From: Archangiaceae bacterium
Lineage (GTDB): Bacteria > Myxococcota > Myxococcia > Myxococcales > Myxococcaceae
Assembly (NCBI GenBank): GCA_016879935.1
Contig: JAACJQ010000420.1
Span: 1-64,000, forward strand
Direction of reading: 5' to 3'
DNA: 64,000 nt
Under the pieces are notes generated by a model, which ran no database searches, was not told the origin of the DNA, and was given only the letters and a program-made list of their open reading frames with translations. The translations under genes and the position numbers were made by a program. Of this stretch, positions 1 through 27,621 are shown in pieces. Every line of letters starts with the position of its first letter. Within the stretch, counting starts at the first letter, position 1.

Positions 1-118
1 CATCGAGCTCGGCCCCTGCGTCGACCTCGCTGGCGCCCGCGTCGTTCGGTTCGTCAGGAGGCACGACGGGAACGGCGGAGCACCCGATCAGCATCAGCGC
101 GAACAGTCGCAGCTTCAT
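1..118 (-). CDS. Lipoprotein, N-terminal part only (cut by window edge)
   Basis: The reading frame begins with ATG at 118 and runs off the left edge. The visible residues start MKLRLFALMLIGCSAV: a short positively charged, hydrophobic stretch ending in the lipobox LIGC, so the protein should be exported and lipid-anchored at the Cys. What follows is rich in Pro, Asp, Glu and Ala, typical of the flexible linker after a lipobox. It lies 35 bp downstream of the kinase-ATPase gene on the same strand, so it may end that operon. Function cannot be judged from 39 residues. Confidence 0.7.
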   Translation of the reverse strand, partial: MKLRLFALMLIGCSAVPVVPPDEPNDAGASEVDAGAELD

Positions 119-153
119 GGGCGCGACTTCGCATCAGCCGCCCGCTTCGTCCA

Positions 154-3100
154 TCACGGCAGCGTGGCGGGCAGGTAGACGCGCCGAAACTTCTCGAGGT
201 CGTTCACCCCGAGGCCGCGCGCGCGCTGGTGCGCCTGCTCGACCGCGGTCGTGTCGCGTCGCAGGTGCCCGAGCACCAGCCGGCAACACGTGGCGTAGAG
301 CGCCAGCTCGGCGTGGTCTGCGAGCGTCGCGGCGCGGTCGAGCAGCTGCTGCGCGCCTGGTCGATCGCCTTCGAGCACCTGCGCTCCGGCCCGGAGCCCG
401 AGCGCCAGGGCGTAACCCCAGGTGCGTCGCTTCTTCTCGATGGCGTTGGCCTGCGCGAGCACCCGCCCGTGCCGCTTCGTCGCGAGCAGCGCGCGCCCCA
501 CCATCCACGGCCGGTAGATGGCGATCCACTCCGAGCGCGAGAGCAGCGATCGATCGAGCAGCGGCAGGCTCTCGTCGAGCACCTCGAGGGGCTTGCCGTT
601 CGTGTAGAGCTCGATGTTCAAGCGCGCCATGAACTCGAAGAAGTGCTGCACCGAATAGCTGACGGCGTTGAGCCCGGGCTGGGCCGCCAGAACCTCGTCA
701 CGCGCGCGTCGCTCGTCGTCGAGCGCCAGCCAGGACAAGTTCGGGAGCCCGGTGCGCAGGGTCGCCTCGACGTACCGATCGCCACGCTCCCTCGCGGCGG
801 GGAGCGCCGAGTGGAGTCGACGGTTCACCTCGCCGAGGTCGCCGGCGTGGCCCAGCGCCACCATCGCGAAGAGCTCACTCGTGAACGTCTCCTTCACGGC
901 GCCCGGGCACTTCGCGAAGCGTTGCGCGGCCTGCTCGCAGAGCTTTTGCGCCTCCGCGAGTCTTCCGAGGTGGAACGAGGCGATGCCGGCGCCGCCGAAC
1001 GTGCACGCGTGGGCGTAGGCGTCGTCGATGGTCGAGGTGACGGCCTCACAGCGGGCGAGCACCTCGCGCGTGCGTGCTTCTCCGGCGCCACCGGCGTTCG
1101 CCGAGAAGGCCGTCTCGTAGCCCAGGCAGACGGCGATGCGGGTCGGCTCTCCGGCGTCGAGCGCGCGGAGCAGGGCCTGGCTCATCAGGTCTGACGCTCG
1201 CAGCGAGTCGAGGGCCGCCAGCCCGATGGAGGTCGAAGTCAGCGTGTCGATGCGCGCCAGCTCGGCCCGGTCGATCGCCGAGGCTGGCCTGCGAACGAAC
1301 TCGTACCCACGCAGCTTCAGCCTGGCCCTCGTCCATACCATCGAGGCGAAGGCGCCCTGCGGCGAGCGCGCGAGCGAGAGGCCGCGGGCCTTCAGCGCCG
1401 TGCGCGTCAGGTCGAGGCCGCGCTCGACGTGACCGGCCCGGAGCAACTGCGCACCAGCGCGGGTCTTCAGCTCGAGCGCCTCGGTGGCGGGAGCCGCGCG
1501 CGCTGCGACGAGCAGGACTTCTGCAGCGTCGGCGCCCCGGCCGGCGTTCGAGAGCGCGGTGCCGAGCGCCAGCCGAACCGCGTGCGCGTCGGCCCGACCC
1601 GGAGCCCAGGCCAGCACCTTCGAGAAGAGATCGGCCGCGTGGTTGTACGCGAGGGTCGACATCGCGCGGTGAGCGCCCCGAAGGGCCTGGTCGGCCGCGG
1701 CGTCGAGCTGATTCGAGGCGTGCAGGTGCGCGGCGAGAAGTTCGGGGTCGCCGTCGAACCGCGCCAGCGCGTCGGCGATCGACGCGTGCCGGGCGAGAGC
1801 CTCTGTCGGCCCGATGGTGCGCTCCACCGCCCGGCGCAGGGTGTCGTGGTACGGCTCGATCGTTCCGTCGCCTCGCACCAGCACGAGCCGCCCTGCACGC
1901 AGATGACCGAGCGCGAGCGCCTCGGCCTGCGTGAGGTTGGCGGCGGTGGCGCAAGCAGCCCGCGGCAGCGGTGCCTTCGCGAGACAGACCGTCTCGAGCA
2001 GGTGCCGAGCGGGCGAGGGCAGGTGCGCGAGTCGGCTCGCCAGGGCGGCGTCGAGATCGTCGTGACCCGCGAGGGCCTGCAACAGAAACGGGTTGCCGTG
2101 CGCGCCAGCCGCCAGGCGTGGCCGCTCGACCGCTTCGGGCTGCAGCGCCGCGAGCAACTCGAGGCTCTCGTCGGCCGACAGCGGGCCCAGTGGAAGATCG
2201 TACCGGGTCGCACAGCCAACTGGCGCTGGCGCTCGCCGCAAGGGCTCGAGCAGCGGGTGCCCCTCGTCGCGCAGCGCCAGCACGAACACCACGGGCGCCG
2301 TCGTGGGCGTGTCGAGCAGCTCTCGGAGGAAGGGAATCGAGTCGGCGTCGGCCCAGTGCAGATCGTCGATGGCGACGACGACGGGCTGCCGTTGCGTGGC
2401 CGCGTGGATGAGGTGGCGCAGGGCGATGGCAGACTCGTGGCGGTGCCGCTCGGGTGGCGAGTCGGAAGGCGCGGCGCGAACGAGCGGCCGCAGCACCGGA
2501 AAGCTGCGGGCCAGGTTCGCGACCTCGGTCTCGAGCGGGGTCGACTCCGTCGCCAGCCAGCGGGCGAGCCCATCGACCAGTCCATCGACCGTCCTGAAGG
2601 GCGTGCTCTCGTGCTCGAAGCAACGCGACGTCAGCACGAGGGCGCCTTCGTCTCGACGTTGCCTCACGAAGTGACGGAGCACCGACGACTTCCCCATTCC
2701 AGGCGGGCCATGCAGCCACATCGCGGCAGGTCCCTGTGCGCGCTCCAGCCTCGTGAGCACCTCTCGGCGCCCGATGAGCGGAACGTCGGGTCGCTGCTCG
2801 AGCAACGGCGCCAGGGCCGGCTCGAGCGTGCGCACCACCTCTGCCGCCGTCGGGCGATCGGCTGGCGTTCGGGCGAGGAGCCGCTGGCACAGCGACGCTT
2901 CGACCCCTGGAAGCGGGAGCACGACGTCGGTGGAGCGTTTCGCTGCGAGCACCTCGAGGGCCGCACCGACGAACGGTCGACGTCCGGTGAGGGCCTCGAA
3001 CAACATCACGCCCAGGGCATAGAGATCGGACGCGGCCGAGGCCGGCGCACCACTCGCCTGCTCGGGTGACAGCCACGCGGCTGCGCCGACCATGCCCTCC

Positions 3101-3594
3101 GCTTCGTCTGGCGCCTCGTCGACTGCCAACCCGAAGTCGAGCACCACCGCGTCGCCCTGCGGCGTGACGCGCACGTTCGAGGGCTTGAGATCGCGGTGCA
3201 GGCGGCCGCTCGAGTGCAGGAACGCGAGGCCGAGGGCGATCTGCGCGAACACCTGGCGAAGCAGATGCGGGCTGGCGCGCAGGGCGTCGAGCAGATCGAG
3301 CCCGTCGATGGGCTCCATCACCAGAAACCAGGTGTCGCCTTCGCGCCCGAGCTCGTGGAGCGGAACGAGGTGCGCGTGCGCGAGATCGGCCAACGCCCGG
3401 AACTCGCGCTTGAAGGCCTGAAGGGCGTGCAGGCGATCGGCGCGGAGCACCTTGACCGCCACCCTGGCTCCTCGCGCGCGGTCGGTCGCTTCGAAGACGG
3501 TGCCGAAGCTGCCCCGGCCCAACTGACGATGCGGAGTGAAGCGCGCGTTCAGCGCCTCGGGCCACGCCTCGGGAATGGGCTCCACCGCCGTCAT
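154..3594 (-). CDS. Ser/Thr protein kinase fused to a large AAA-type ATPase/TPR-like regulator
   Basis: This 1146-residue cytoplasmic protein starts with a Hanks-type kinase domain (about residues 20-265). The Gly loop GRGSFGTV, the lysine in VAVKVL, the catalytic loop HRDLKPSN and DFG are all intact, so it should phosphorylate Ser/Thr. A second module follows with Walker A GPPGMGKSS (near residue 297) and Walker B VVVAIDDLHWAD (near 408), as in STAND/PknK-like ATPases. The C-terminal half is Ala/Leu/Arg-rich and helical, probably TPR-like. No membrane segment is evident. The ATG at 3594 lies 14 bp after the stop of the sigma54 activator gene, so the two are probably co-transcribed. The natural inference is that the kinase acts on, or with, that activator; substrate and signal are unknown. 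Confidence 0.9.
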   Translation of the reverse strand: MTAVEPIPEAWPEALNARFTPHRQLGRGSFGTVFEATDRARGARVAVKVLRADRLHALQAFKREFRALADLAHAHLVPLHELGREGDTWFLVMEPIDGLDLLDALRASPHLLRQVFAQIALGLAFLHSSGRLHRDLKPSNVRVTPQGDAVVLDFGLAVDEAPDEAEGMVGAAAWLSPEQASGAPASAASDLYALGVMLFEALTGRRPFVGAALEVLAAKRSTDVVLPLPGVEASLCQRLLARTPADRPTAAEVVRTLEPALAPLLEQRPDVPLIGRREVLTRLERAQGPAAMWLHGPPGMGKSSVLRHFVRQRRDEGALVLTSRCFEHESTPFRTVDGLVDGLARWLATESTPLETEVANLARSFPVLRPLVRAAPSDSPPERHRHESAIALRHLIHAATQRQPVVVAIDDLHWADADSIPFLRELLDTPTTAPVVFVLALRDEGHPLLEPLRRAPAPVGCATRYDLPLGPLSADESLELLAALQPEAVERPRLAAGAHGNPFLLQALAGHDDLDAALASRLAHLPSPARHLLETVCLAKAPLPRAACATAANLTQAEALALGHLRAGRLVLVRGDGTIEPYHDTLRRAVERTIGPTEALARHASIADALARFDGDPELLAAHLHASNQLDAAADQALRGAHRAMSTLAYNHAADLFSKVLAWAPGRADAHAVRLALGTALSNAGRGADAAEVLLVAARAAPATEALELKTRAGAQLLRAGHVERGLDLTRTALKARGLSLARSPQGAFASMVWTRARLKLRGYEFVRRPASAIDRAELARIDTLTSTSIGLAALDSLRASDLMSQALLRALDAGEPTRIAVCLGYETAFSANAGGAGEARTREVLARCEAVTSTIDDAYAHACTFGGAGIASFHLGRLAEAQKLCEQAAQRFAKCPGAVKETFTSELFAMVALGHAGDLGEVNRRLHSALPAARERGDRYVEATLRTGLPNLSWLALDDERRARDEVLAAQPGLNAVSYSVQHFFEFMARLNIELYTNGKPLEVLDESLPLLDRSLLSRSEWIAIYRPWMVGRALLATKRHGRVLAQANAIEKKRRTWGYALALGLRAGAQVLEGDRPGAQQLLDRAATLADHAELALYATCCRLVLGHLRRDTTAVEQAHQRARGLGVNDLEKFRRVYLPATLP

Positions 3595-3608
3595 CGAAGG
3601 GCGGCAGC

Positions 3609-5189
3609 CTACTCTCTGGGAAGGCCGAGCGACGCCAGTCGGCTCAGCAGGCTCGTGCGCGGCAGCCCGAGGGCGCGAGCGGCTTTCGAGACGTTTCCGC
3701 CGGCGGTCGTGAGCGCCGCGGCAATCACCTCGCGCTCGCGGGCATCGAGCGCGTCACGTTGCCGCTGCAGCTCGGACCAGTCGGGCGAAGGCGCGGCGAC
3801 CGGGTCTTCTGCACGCCGCTGCTCGATGGGCCTGCCGGGCTCGGCCTCGACGTGGGTGACCGCGAGCCGCTCGGCGTCGGGGTCTTCGAGCAGGGCGAGA
3901 TCGATCGCGCGCCGCAACGTCGACTCGAGCTGGCGGAAGTTGCCCGGCCACCCGTGCGCCTCGGAGGCGAACCACCGGCTGAGCGCCGCATCGAGCTTCC
4001 ACGGCCGGGAGGGATCGAGGCGGCCCAGACACTCGCGGGCCAGCGCTGGAATCTCGTCGCGGCGCGCGCGCAGGGGAGGCAGCTGCACCCGGTGGCCGGC
4101 GACGCGGAAGTAGAGGTCTTGCCGGAAGCGCCCGTCGGCGACGGCTGCGTCGAGATCGCCGTTGGTGGCGCAGATCAGCCGCGCCTTGCTGCGCCGCGCA
4201 TCGGCTCTCGCCCAGCCCAGCGGCCGGTAGGTGCCGAACTGGGTGAAGTCGAGCAGCAGCTGCTGGGCCGCGCGCGGCAGGTTCAGCACCTCGTCGAAGA
4301 TCAGCGTGCCGCCGTCGGCGTACTCGACCAGCCCCACCCGCCGGGCGAGCGCTCCCGAGAACGAGCCCTTCTCGTGGCCGAACAGCTCCGAGGTGATGGT
4401 GTTGAGGTCGTCGCTGCTCCCGAGCGTGGCGCGAACGATGGGCGCGCGCCCCGAGGCCTCGGCCAGCAACTGCGCGAGCAGCGTCTTGCCGGTGCCCGAC
4501 TCGCCCAGCAGCAGCACCGGCACGTCGGAGTGCACGGCGGCGCGCAGCTGTCTGGCGAGCGGCGCGAACGTGGGCGACCCAAGCAGCTGATCGAGCGTGG
4601 GCCCGACGGTGCGCGAGATCTTCAGCCGCTCGCCACGCAGCGTCTCTCGCGCCTGTTGCAGCCGCTGGTGCTGCGCCACCACCGACGAGAGCAGCGCCGC
4701 GGCCGCCGTGAGGAACTCTGCGAGCCGGGGAGAGGGAATGCGCGTGCGATCGCGGAAGTCGACGTACAGCACCCCCCGTTGCGCCCCGTCGTCACCCCGC
4801 GCCGCCGACAGCACCCCCGGCTCGAGGGGCACCGCGAAGGCCGCGAGACTGCCGAACGCCTGCACGCTCGCGCTGCCGTCCTCTCCATCGAAGGCAGACA
4901 TCGAGACGCAGCGGGCGCTCTGCTCGGCCTCCTTGACGAGCGTTCGGCTCAGCTCGTGCCGTTCGTTCGGGGCCAGCGCGCGCCCCTCCCTGCGCGCGTT
5001 GACCGGCACCGTCTCACCGTCGGCGTACGAGAGCAGCAAGAGCGCCCGGTCGGCACCCGTGACGTCAGCCACCGCGTCGAGGAAGTCGTCGGGCGTCGTT
5101 TCGTCACGGCCGAGCCTCGAGAGCAGGTCCTGAAGACCCGTCCACAGACCCCGCTCATCGAGTGACGCGTCTACCGCCAGCGGTCGCAT
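3609..5189 (-). CDS. Sigma54-dependent transcriptional activator with N-terminal GAF-like domain
   Basis: About 526 residues. The N-terminal 200 residues look like a GAF-type sensor and lack a receiver-domain phospho-Asp. The AAA+ domain has Walker A GESGTGKT and Walker B TLIFDEV, and the C-terminus carries a Fis-type HTH (GGNVSKAARALGLPRTSLLSRL). The sigma54-contacting loop, normally GAFTGA, reads GSFSGA at residues 275-280; the central Phe and final Gly-Ala are kept, but the Thr is Ser. The frame could also begin at a TTG at 5219, ten residues earlier; I prefer the ATG at 5189, though neither has a strong ribosome site. It sits between the LRR gene and the kinase gene in a tight minus-strand run behind a sigma54 promoter, suggesting autoregulation. 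Confidence 0.9.
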   Translation of the reverse strand: MRPLAVDASLDERGLWTGLQDLLSRLGRDETTPDDFLDAVADVTGADRALLLLSYADGETVPVNARREGRALAPNERHELSRTLVKEAEQSARCVSMSAFDGEDGSASVQAFGSLAAFAVPLEPGVLSAARGDDGAQRGVLYVDFRDRTRIPSPRLAEFLTAAAALLSSVVAQHQRLQQARETLRGERLKISRTVGPTLDQLLGSPTFAPLARQLRAAVHSDVPVLLLGESGTGKTLLAQLLAEASGRAPIVRATLGSSDDLNTITSELFGHEKGSFSGALARRVGLVEYADGGTLIFDEVLNLPRAAQQLLLDFTQFGTYRPLGWARADARRSKARLICATNGDLDAAVADGRFRQDLYFRVAGHRVQLPPLRARRDEIPALARECLGRLDPSRPWKLDAALSRWFASEAHGWPGNFRQLESTLRRAIDLALLEDPDAERLAVTHVEAEPGRPIEQRRAEDPVAAPSPDWSELQRQRDALDAREREVIAAALTTAGGNVSKAARALGLPRTSLLSRLASLGLPRE

Positions 5190-5237
5190 GAGGCGGCCCA
5201 AGGTAGCCCACGTCGTCAACGGGTTCTCGCTTTCGCG

Positions 5238-6335
5238 TCAGCGCGTCACTCGCGCCGTCGGCAGCTTCTCGAGCAGCTTCTTCACGCCGTCGTCCGTCAC
5301 GGCCGTCTTGCGCGCGTCGAAGGTCGCGAGGTTCGGAATGGTGACGAGCGAGGCCACGCACTTGTCGGTGATCTTCGTCTCGTCGGCCTTCAGCCACCGC
5401 AGGGTGGGGTGCTTCGCGAACGCGGCCAGGCCCTTGTCGCCAACGGCCGTCCGATCGATCCACAGGTTCTCGAGCGTCTGAATCTTCGCGAGCGACTTCG
5501 CGCCCGCGTCGGTGATGCCCGTGTCGCTGACGTAGATCGTCTTGAGCGGCAGCGTGGCGATGGCGGCCATCGTCTTGTCGGTCGTCTTCGTGCTCCAGAT
5601 GAAGAGGCGCTCGAGCGTCTTCACCTTCGCCAGCTGCACGCCGCCCGCGTCGTCGAGCTTCGAGGACATGAGCGTCAGCTCCTTGAGGTTCTTCGCGTTC
5701 GCGAGCTCGGCCACGTCTTCGTTCACCTTCGCGAACTGCAGCTGCAGCGTCTCGAGGTTCGGCATCGCGGCGATCGCGGCCATGCCAGCCTTCGTCGCCT
5801 TGAGATCGTCGAAGACGAGGGTGGTGAGCGGCAGGTCTTTGATGGTCTGCAGCCCGACCTCGGTCACCTGCGTCTTGGTGAGGTTGAGGCGCGAGAGCTT
5901 CGTCAGCTTCGCCACGTGCACCATCGCCGCGTCGGTCACCTGCGTCTCCGAGAGCGCGAGCTCCTTCAGGTTCGACAGCCTCGCAATGTCGGGGAACGCG
6001 GCGTCAGTCACCTTCGAGAAGTACAGCTTGAGCGCCTGCAGGTTCGGCTGCGCCTTGACGACCTCGCTCACGGCGGCGTCACTGCCCGACGTGCTCGACA
6101 GCACCACCTCACGCAGCGCCGGGAACGCCTTGAGCTTCGAGAGATCGGCGACGACCAGCTTGTTGCCCGTCTGGCCGAAGTCGACCGCGTACGCCTTCGA
6201 GACGAGCTCGGCCGTCGGGGTCTGCGAGTTGACCTTGCCTCCGATGCCCTTGAGCCACTCCGCGAGCTCCGCAGGCGTCTGCGCGACGGCGGTGGAACAG
6301 ATCGACGCAACGAGAACGGTGACGACGCGTGACAT
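5238..6335 (-). CDS. Exported leucine-rich-repeat protein
   Basis: A 365-residue protein. The ATG at 6335 is chosen because it gives a clean signal peptide (MSRVVTVLVASICSTAVAQ) and follows a G-rich ribosome site. The rest is a tandem array of about eleven LRRs of 23-24 residues with the consensus LxxLxxLxLxxTxVTDxGL, continuing to the C-terminus. This is the short bacterial type common in Planctomycetes and Myxococcota. LRR arrays form curved binding surfaces, so a periplasmic or surface sensor or scaffold is plausible, but no partner can be named. It is the first gene of the run leading to the sigma54 activator and the kinase, with a -24/-12 promoter directly upstream. Confidence 0.85.
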   Translation of the reverse strand: MSRVVTVLVASICSTAVAQTPAELAEWLKGIGGKVNSQTPTAELVSKAYAVDFGQTGNKLVVADLSKLKAFPALREVVLSSTSGSDAAVSEVVKAQPNLQALKLYFSKVTDAAFPDIARLSNLKELALSETQVTDAAMVHVAKLTKLSRLNLTKTQVTEVGLQTIKDLPLTTLVFDDLKATKAGMAAIAAMPNLETLQLQFAKVNEDVAELANAKNLKELTLMSSKLDDAGGVQLAKVKTLERLFIWSTKTTDKTMAAIATLPLKTIYVSDTGITDAGAKSLAKIQTLENLWIDRTAVGDKGLAAFAKHPTLRWLKADETKITDKCVASLVTIPNLATFDARKTAVTDDGVKKLLEKLPTARVTR

Positions 6336-6373
6336 GAAGACGACCCCCGGTGAGGTGTGAACCGGGCGGCCCG

Positions 6374-6390
6374 AGCACGTGACGTGCCAC
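6374..6390 (-). promoter_or_regulatory. Sigma54 (-24/-12) promoter for the LRR-activator-kinase run
   Basis: Read on the minus strand the site is TGGCACGtcacGTGCT. The -24 element TGGCACG is a perfect match to consensus, followed by the required GG-N10-GC spacing and a GTGC -12 element (consensus TTGC). The predicted start of transcription is near 6363, about 28 nt before the LRR gene's ATG. Part of the site is also a near-palindrome (GCACGTCACGTGC). A sigma54 activator is encoded second in this transcript, so positive autoregulation is a reasonable inference. Confidence 0.7.
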
Positions 6391-6452
6391 CTCGTCGTCG
6401 AGGGAGCGTCTCGCGCGCATCGCCCACGCACCGTCGAGTCGACGTCAGAACG

Positions 6453-7052
6453 TCAACTCCAGTCCCACCCCGCCACGAGCGCCGCCGCCGCAGGGAACCG
6501 CTCGAGCGGGCCTTTCGCGACGTAGTGGCAGTGCAGGTCCTTGCGCACGAACACCTTTGCGACGAATGGCTCTCCCTCCCACGCGACCTCGAACGAGTGC
6601 GCGATCTTCACCACGAGCTTGCCGCCAGCGAACGACAGCTCGGCGCCGAGCGGCACTTCGGGTGGCTGCAGGTCTTCGGGAATCGGCGCGCCGAGCAGCC
6701 GGGCCACCTTCACCATCATTCGAGCCGCTGCCGCTGCCCGCTGCGTGTAGTCGGGCGGGGCCGTGCCCGACGCGAATTCCGAGGCCCAGCTGCCTTCACG
6801 GAGCCGTCGCTTCACGAGGTCGACGTACAGCTCGTCGCGGTCGAGCTTCACCAACCCCAGCTCGGGAAAGTGCTCGACGATGCGCGCCTGCCGCACGCGC
6901 TCATACGGGTCGAGGCCGTTGCGGTCGCCCCATTGCCTGATGGTGACGAGGTCTCCCTCCTGCGTGACGCTGGTCGCGTTCGTCACCCAGCCCTGCTCGT
7001 CCTTGTCGAAGCCGCCGTCGTCGTAGGAGCAGGTGACGTCGATGAGTGCCAT
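6453..7052 (-). CDS. Unknown 199-aa cytoplasmic protein
   Basis: The frame stays open upstream of 7052, but the ATG at 7052 (MALIDVTCSYDDGG) begins sequence that looks like a real protein start; the stretch before it is Arg/Ser/Thr-rich and noncoding in character. There is no signal peptide or membrane segment. The N-terminal half (DGGFDKDEQGWVTNATSVTQ) is acidic and strand-rich, and the C-terminal half has alternating hydrophobic strands around GKLVVKIAHSFEVAWEGEPF. I do not recognise the family. It ends 117 bp upstream of the LRR gene on the same strand and is divergent from the Tudor-like gene at 7153. Confidence 0.7.
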   Translation of the reverse strand: MALIDVTCSYDDGGFDKDEQGWVTNATSVTQEGDLVTIRQWGDRNGLDPYERVRQARIVEHFPELGLVKLDRDELYVDLVKRRLREGSWASEFASGTAPPDYTQRAAAAARMMVKVARLLGAPIPEDLQPPEVPLGAELSFAGGKLVVKIAHSFEVAWEGEPFVAKVFVRKDLHCHYVAKGPLERFPAAAALVAGWDWS

Positions 7053-26264: not shown

Positions 26265-27621
26265 GGTTCTGGTGGTCGACGACGAGCCCTCGATTCTCGA
26301 GTTCCTCGAGGTGCTGCTGTCGAAGCACGGGCATCAGGTTCGAACCGCGCCCTCGGTCGAAGCCGCGACGAAGGCGCTCACGGCGTCGGTGCCCGATCTC
26401 GTCATCACCGACTTCCGCATCGGCAAGCAGTCGGGCCTCGACGTGGTGAAGGCCGCGCGGGCGCTCAGCATGCCGCCAGAGGTGATCGTGGTGACGGCGT
26501 ACGGAACGCCCGCGTCGGCCGTCGAGGCGATGCGACAGGGCGCCTACGACTACGTCACCAAGCCGTTCGACAACGACGAGCTGATGCTGCTCGTCGAGCG
26601 CGCGATCGAGAAGCGCTCCCTGCGCGTCGAGAACCGGCGGCTGCGCGCGACCTCGGGCATCTTCATGGGGCAGAGCCCCGCGATGCAGGAGGTGTGGTCG
26701 TTGGTGCAGAAGGTCGCGCCCACGCGCGCGACGGTGCTGATCTCGGGCGAGAGCGGCACCGGCAAAGAGGTCGTCGCCCGCGCCATTCACCAGCAGAGCC
26801 CGCGCGCCAGTCAGCCCTTCGTGCCCGTCAACTGCGGAGCGCTCGCCGAAGGGGTGCTCGAGAGCGAGCTCTTCGGCCACGTGAAGGGGGCCTTCACCGG
26901 CGCCTCCTCCGATCGGCAGGGCATTCTGGCGGCGGCGGGTGAGGGCACCGTGTTGCTCGACGAGGTGGGCGAGTTGCCGCTGGGCACCCAGGTGAAGCTG
27001 CTCCGCGTGCTGCAGGAGCGAAAGGTGAAGCCCGTCGGCAGCAGCCGCGAGGTTCCATTCGAGGCCCGCATTCTCGCCGCCACCAACCGCAAGCTCGAAG
27101 ACGAAGTGAAGGCGGGGCGGTTTCGCGAAGACTTGTGGTTTCGGCTCAACGTCATCGTCATCGAGGTGCCGCCCCTTCGACGTCGCCGAGAAGACACGCC
27201 CGCGCTCGCGGAGTTCTTCCTCGGGCGCGTCGCCAACGAGCTTGGCCGACCGGGCCTGCACTTCACGCCCGAAGCCATTGCGGTGCTCCAGGACTATGCG
27301 TTTCCGGGAAACGTGCGGCAGATGCAGAACGTCATCGAGCGGGCGGCCACGTTGAGCGACTTCGACGAGCTCGACGTCTCGTCGCTCCCGCCCATGGTCC
27401 GCGGCGCACCTGGAGAGCCCGAAGCGGCCAGCCCCGAGGTCACGCTCGCTCCCGGCTTCTCACTCGAGCTGCACCTCGACACGCTCGAGCGCAACTACCT
27501 CCACGAGGCCTTGCGCCGGGCAGGCGGCGCGAAGACGAAGGCCGCCAAGATGCTGGGCCTGTCGTTTCGCTCCTTTCGCTATCGCCTCGCGAAGCACGGC
27601 ATGCCCACCGAAGACGTCTGA
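26257..27621 (+). CDS. pilR: Sigma54-dependent response regulator PilR
   Basis: 454 residues, ATG 26257 overlapping the pilS stop. The receiver domain has phospho-Asp in LVITDFRIG. The AAA+ domain has Walker A GESGTGKE near residue 164 and an intact sigma54-contact loop GAFTGA near 211. A C-terminal Fis-type HTH (KTKAAKMLGLSFRSFRYRL) binds DNA. PilR activates pilA with sigma54 polymerase in M. xanthus and Pseudomonas; a -24/-12 promoter in front of pilA here fits that. Unlike M. xanthus, pilA is not the next gene; a 3.2-kb antisense gene intervenes. Confidence 0.96.
   Translation: MSEVLVVDDEPSILEFLEVLLSKHGHQVRTAPSVEAATKALTASVPDLVITDFRIGKQSGLDVVKAARALSMPPEVIVVTAYGTPASAVEAMRQGAYDYVTKPFDNDELMLLVERAIEKRSLRVENRRLRATSGIFMGQSPAMQEVWSLVQKVAPTRATVLISGESGTGKEVVARAIHQQSPRASQPFVPVNCGALAEGVLESELFGHVKGAFTGASSDRQGILAAAGEGTVLLDEVGELPLGTQVKLLRVLQERKVKPVGSSREVPFEARILAATNRKLEDEVKAGRFREDLWFRLNVIVIEVPPLRRRREDTPALAEFFLGRVANELGRPGLHFTPEAIAVLQDYAFPGNVRQMQNVIERAATLSDFDELDVSSLPPMVRGAPGEPEAASPEVTLAPGFSLELHLDTLERNYLHEALRRAGGAKTKAAKMLGLSFRSFRYRLAKHGMPTEDV

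Follow-up and report, generated by a model that had tools for sequence, protein, structure and literature searches.

A predicted kinase-linked sigma54 switch for exported proteins at a myxobacterial locus with a conserved palindrome

The window, by which we mean the whole stretch of 64,000 nucleotides analysed here, starts with the first base of contig C430 in a 9.5-Mb draft genome (G000). Its first part carries the following features, all on the minus strand:

1-118, minus strand: N-terminus of a lipoprotein, 38 residues, cut at the contig end (open reading frame)
154-3594, minus strand: soluble Ser/Thr kinase of 1146 aa with an AAA_16 (STAND-type) ATPase and a TPR-like C-terminus (Pfam)
3609-5219, minus strand: sigma54 activator (bEBP) of GAF-AAA+-Fis order with a GSFSGA loop, TTG start, alternative ATG at 5189 (Pfam, motif alignment)
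5238-6335, minus strand: exported LRR protein of 365 aa, N-terminal signal peptide by inspection (LRR-family Pfam matches)
6374-6389, minus strand: sigma54 -24/-12 promoter TGGCACGTCACGTGCT, one mismatch versus TGGCACGNNNNTTGCW
6432-6455, minus strand: predicted activator-binding palindrome (UAS) TGACGTTCTGACGTCGACTCGACG, overlapping the stop codon of the upstream gene and kept in relatives
about 6453-7052, minus strand: upstream gene, 117 nt from the LRR ATG

The initial annotation had described a run of four genes behind this promoter. Three of them, for the LRR protein, the activator and the kinase, are complete and close-set, with the domains it had named recovered by Pfam and the GAF domain weak in the window protein. 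Only 14 nt separate activator and kinase and 18 or 48 nt, depending on the start codon, separate LRR protein and activator; no T-tailed terminator-like site is present in either gap. The lipoprotein, a 38-residue stub, was rejected as the fourth member and probably lies outside the module, since the genes found 3′ of the kinase in three relatives (G009, G010 and G012) are different and unrelated.

The activator is clearly recognized by Pfam (Sigma54_activat, PF00158, E=3e-40; HTH_8, 6e-10) and contains Walker A (GESGTGKT) and Walker B (GGTLIFDE) by motif alignment, and the profile of its family aligns with NifA over nearly the full length. The GAF domain (PF01590) falls below threshold in the window activator alone (E=0.059) and is significant at E<=0.01 in 17 of 21 family members, while neither a receiver domain nor an FHA domain was matched by Pfam in the window activator. 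According to the motif alignment, its GSFSGA loop deviates from GAFTGA, with serine in nearly all family members. It combines two single variants, GAFSGA and GSFTGA, each of which has been judged functional in Desulfovibrio (PMC4641369). Translation probably starts at TTG 5219: the in-frame residues between this codon and the ATG are common to the window and G009, with synonymous changes between the two. The kinase matches Pkinase (PF00069, 4e-41) and AAA_16 (3e-22) and has the motifs VAVK (45-48), HRDLKPSN (133) and DFG (153) as well as Walker A and B. Hydropathy revealed no transmembrane segment in either the window kinase or the window activator.

From the -24/-12 element, transcription would be expected to start near 6363, which leaves 28 nt to the LRR ATG. 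The window contains five sigma54 sites with at most two mismatches where shuffles predict 9.6, so the promoter match alone is not significant. What makes it convincing is conservation: the LRR genes of three genomes with differing neighbours (window, G009 and G010) are all preceded by GG-N10-GC. Thus the promoter that the initial annotation had called near-perfect does have a single mismatch, does not exceed chance within the window, and is convincingly real through its relatives.

Activator orthologues occur in 4 of the 95 other genomes of the family (G009, G010, G012 and G052). The LRR protein has orthologues in G009 (65 % identical) and G010 (57 %), both adjoining the activator orthologue; the gene lies upstream of the activator on the same strand in G009 and is divergent in G010, and G012 has no LRR gene. 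Orthologues of the kinase-AAA-TPR protein adjoin the activator in G010 and G012, and also in G009, where the gene is split over two contigs.

A 24-bp palindrome (YGACGNNNTGACGTCRNNNCGWCR, window 6432-6455) connects these loci. In the window, in G009 and in G010 it starts 117-121 nt ahead of the LRR ATG and is followed each time by GG-N10-GC, and the same palindrome is found beside, and upstream of, the activator in G012. The corresponding 21-bp core pattern occurs at 12 places in the four genomes and its reversed control at none; three of these sites served to define the pattern and are therefore no independent support. Four of the 12 places are at activator loci, upstream of the LRR gene (window, G009, G010) or of the activator (G012). 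Overall, the palindrome stands 58-87 nt upstream of GG-N10-GC at eight promoters in four genomes, listed here with the offset from the palindrome start and the mismatches of the promoter:

Window, LRR gene: offset 66, 1 mismatch
G010, LRR gene: offset 65, 3 mismatches
G009, LRR gene: offset 58, 2 mismatches
G009, 160-aa protein gene: offset 80, 2 mismatches
G010, HExxH protein gene: offset 69, 2 mismatches
G010, 160-aa protein gene: offset 68, 3 mismatches
G012, 160-aa protein gene: offset 87, 4 mismatches
G012, lipoprotein gene: offset 67, 2 mismatches

Seven of the eight have at most three mismatches, a quality that 0.65 % of 30-nt background windows reach (3.5 % for at most four). In G010 and G012, the combined search for palindrome and promoter returned nothing but module genes (2/2 in each). 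An exported 497-aa protein on contig C3 of G010 (offset 65, four mismatches) is a possible ninth target. In the window genome, palindrome and promoter occur in full at the window operon only, and contig C208 has a palindrome without promoter. The other palindrome sites of that genome (C18, C208, C368, C305 and C174) were discarded, being mostly intragenic and none having a good sigma54 site at the proper spacing; the perfect TGACG-N6-CGTCA was likewise dropped as a marker, with 11 sites in the window genome and hence no specificity.

Beyond the LRR gene, the palindrome leads to further exported proteins. On contig C26 of G010 it lies between two divergent genes, one for a secreted HExxH protein and the other for a 160-aa exported protein, with a sigma54-like site at 68-69 nt on each side. 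This HExxH protein is 67 % identical to one encoded inside the LRR operon of G009; thus the gene belongs to the LRR operon in one genome and occupies a separate locus with its own palindrome and promoter in the other. Genes for homologues of the 160-aa protein are divergent from the module and face the same palindrome in G009 and G012, so that the gene is found at three loci with the palindrome (G009, G010, G012). On contig C72 of G012 the palindrome precedes a gene for a lipoprotein of at least 1413 aa. The two exported families were located as follows:

L054 3473-4609 (plus strand): secreted HExxH protein with conserved HExxH and downstream Glu region
L177 3364-4530 (minus strand): secreted HExxH protein with conserved HExxH and downstream Glu region
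L054 1693-2172 (minus strand): 160-aa exported protein family
L177 4730-5230 (plus strand): 160-aa exported protein family
L056 8677-9144 (minus strand): 160-aa exported protein family
L197 1314-1784 (plus strand): 160-aa exported protein family

The HExxH protein is a putative zinc metalloprotease. Its profile matches the zinc-protease part of lethal factor weakly (38 positions, E=0.0018), which is only a hint of such a fold, and no named family was found for this protein in Pfam or NCBIfam, nor for the 160-aa protein in Pfam. The 160-aa family has a mean column identity of 75 % and occurs in just four genomes of the family. No palindrome is present within about 1.5 kb of distant HExxH relatives in G000, G009 (C426), G011, G048, G092 and G095, and a 160-aa homologue in G048 is also without it.

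Which protein would read the palindrome is suggested by the activator itself. All four genomes that bear the palindrome encode the same recognition helix in it, LGLPRTSLLSR, and G052, which lacks the palindrome, has a different one (LGLARTTLSSR); this covariation supports the activator as the binder. The features by which a sigma54 activator is recognized, namely a Fis-type HTH together with -24/-12 promoters preceded by a palindrome at the predicted targets, are present, and each of the four palindrome-bearing genomes has an RpoN gene. Besides the full RpoN gene, the sigma54 DNA-binding domain has one more match in G000, which is short and weak (C298, 8129-8350; E=4.6e-6, 193-aa frame). The window has a further activator-type Fis DNA-binding domain at 27475-27612 on the plus strand, inside a 476-aa open frame.

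A collection-wide search for the activator returned more than 20 full-length relatives from Myxococcota. Counting each locus once and leaving out one locus cut by a contig end, a protein kinase gene adjoins the activator gene in 17 of 26 scored relatives, across Myxococcota, in downstream, divergent or convergent position; the remaining nine have no adjacent kinase. At several loci the two genes overlap by a few bases. As a rough estimate from about 200 loose kinase candidates per genome (196 at first look in G000), chance adjacency would be about 5 % for two neighbours. The paired kinases vary greatly in length and in their C-terminal part, as expected if the pair is retained while the sensor part is exchanged. 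Synteny, proposed at the outset as the check on whether these genes belong together, thus bears the association out, both in this kinase adjacency and in the three close LRR genes, all of which adjoin an activator gene.

The domain architecture, the conserved palindrome and promoter, the exported targets and the kinase adjacency can be read from the sequences directly. For the way they work together, we consider it likely that they form a local sigma54 regulon, linked to a kinase and serving exported proteins, in which the activator binds the palindrome and the kinase sets the activity of the activator. The activator would bind the 24-bp palindrome centred on TGACGTCA and, by hydrolysing ATP, would open sigma54-RNA polymerase at the -24/-12 promoter 58-87 nt downstream. 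In the window the predicted target is the LRR protein, to which relatives add the secreted HExxH protein, the 160-aa exported protein and the large lipoprotein. The soluble Ser/Thr kinase, whose ATPase-TPR part is sensor-like, would most likely set the activity of the activator by phosphorylating it, a role that may be likened to that of the histidine kinase for NtrC. The activator and kinase genes of the window are near enough to the LRR gene for co-transcription, and induction would then raise the switch as well. Such feedback would be a variable add-on, outside the core of the proposed switch. In some soil myxobacteria, then, a kinase-paired activator appears to switch on a few secreted or surface proteins via one recurring DNA signal, a reading for which the sequences give strong evidence.

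The initial annotation had suggested instead a self-amplifying sensory module, with the exported LRR protein sensing, the kinase relaying and the activator driving its own operon in a positive loop. In the window and G009 the activator does follow the LRR gene in the same orientation, and the short LRR-activator gap of the window has no terminator-like site; positive feedback is therefore possible in these two, where the activator lies 3′ of the promoter. It is not conserved, however: the LRR gene is divergent in G010 and absent from G012, and in both genomes the palindrome lies near the start of the activator gene, towards which no sigma54 site is directed. The sensing role is not supported either. 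The LRR protein has the signal peptide, and neither kinase nor activator has a membrane segment, so direct contact between them is unlikely. Other genes with the same promoter design also encode exported proteins, as outputs would, and the LRR protein is thus more likely to be an output than a sensor. We regard the self-amplifying module as a whole as improbable. A less remote alternative, still on the unlikely side, is that the activator and its exported targets form the regulon while the kinase is a mere neighbour and the activator answers to a GAF ligand. GAF domains commonly bind small ligands, kinase genes are abundant and about a third of the scored relatives lack an adjacent one; on the other hand, adjacency across Myxococcota, with gene overlap at some loci, is well above the rough expectation.

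The palindrome and the sigma54 promoter could also be real and be served by a different activator, with the local activator and kinase as bystanders. Palindromes are common activator sites and each genome has dozens of Fis-type activators (34 matches to the DNA-binding domain in G000 at a loose threshold), yet the palindrome lies beside the activator in all four genomes that share the recognition helix and is absent where the helix differs, and no paralogue in G000 has a similar DNA-binding domain, the next-best match being 44 % identical. This makes a foreign activator very improbable. Least credible of all, to the point that we give it hardly any weight, is a chance sigma54 match with transcription by read-through from the upstream gene: that gene is on the same strand and close to the LRR ATG, and sigma54-like sites in the window are fewer than chance predicts, but three genomes with different neighbours at this locus all have the same promoter element before their LRR gene.

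The proposed regulon, with its kinase as part of the switch, resembles several known systems in part. NifA/NorR-type activators of GAF-AAA+-Fis order have the domain order and AAA+ motifs of the window activator, whereas the window family mostly has serine for the threonine of GAFTGA and a protein kinase gene as its usual neighbour; neither NifA nor NorR is known to be paired with a Ser/Thr kinase. Like NtrB-NtrC-type systems, the window has a kinase and a sigma54 activator, which are often neighbours, and a -24/-12 promoter that would be switched from upstream sites, but the kinase is of the Hanks Ser/Thr type rather than a histidine kinase and the activator is without a receiver domain. PknK of Mycobacterium tuberculosis is likewise large and soluble, with a C-terminal part of the ATPase type. 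It has been reported to phosphorylate transcription regulators (PMC9045387). Its kinase-ATPase-repeat arrangement is similar to that of the window kinase by Pfam, a likeness of architecture, and PknK is without a sigma54 activator. In Myxococcus xanthus, FHA-type activators connect kinase signalling to sigma54 (Jelsbak et al. 2005, as cited in PMC12288465). The window module would likewise join Ser/Thr kinase signalling to sigma54, with a GAF and not an FHA domain in its activator.

Myxobacteria are rich in both Ser/Thr kinases and sigma54 activators. The present case of a possible connection between these two networks is compact: the DNA site and the targets are predicted and a kinase adjoins, which makes the whole proposed chain, from kinase via promoter to exported protein, accessible to experiment. 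Relatives supply negative controls, namely G052, with a different helix and no palindrome, and the distant HExxH relatives without palindrome. A tie between sigma54 and the cell exterior has been described in general terms (PMC3162934). In the open-access literature we found no report of a kinase-paired GAF sigma54 activator family or of this palindrome.

More tentatively, the locus may exemplify a widespread class of myxobacterial switches, of which the papers searched make no mention and in which Hanks-type kinases are paired gene-by-gene with non-FHA sigma54 activators as a Ser/Thr counterpart of NtrB-NtrC, each pair controlling local exported proteins via its own palindrome; we hold this to be quite possible, at somewhat less than even chances. 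At distant family loci (e.g. L062, L066, L069, L074 and L077), sigma54-like sites preceded by palindromes often stand before genes for exported proteins or lipoproteins. Combinations of palindrome and promoter number 18 in 752 kb of test loci versus 2 in 467 kb of control loci, 5.6 times more per base; the reversed pattern gave 11 combinations in the same test loci, so the excess in the wider family is suggestive only. Near one distant activator-kinase locus (L077, about 5946-6121), divergent sigma54-like sites share a palindrome, CGTCGTCGCTGAACGACGACG, with a lipoprotein gene on one side.
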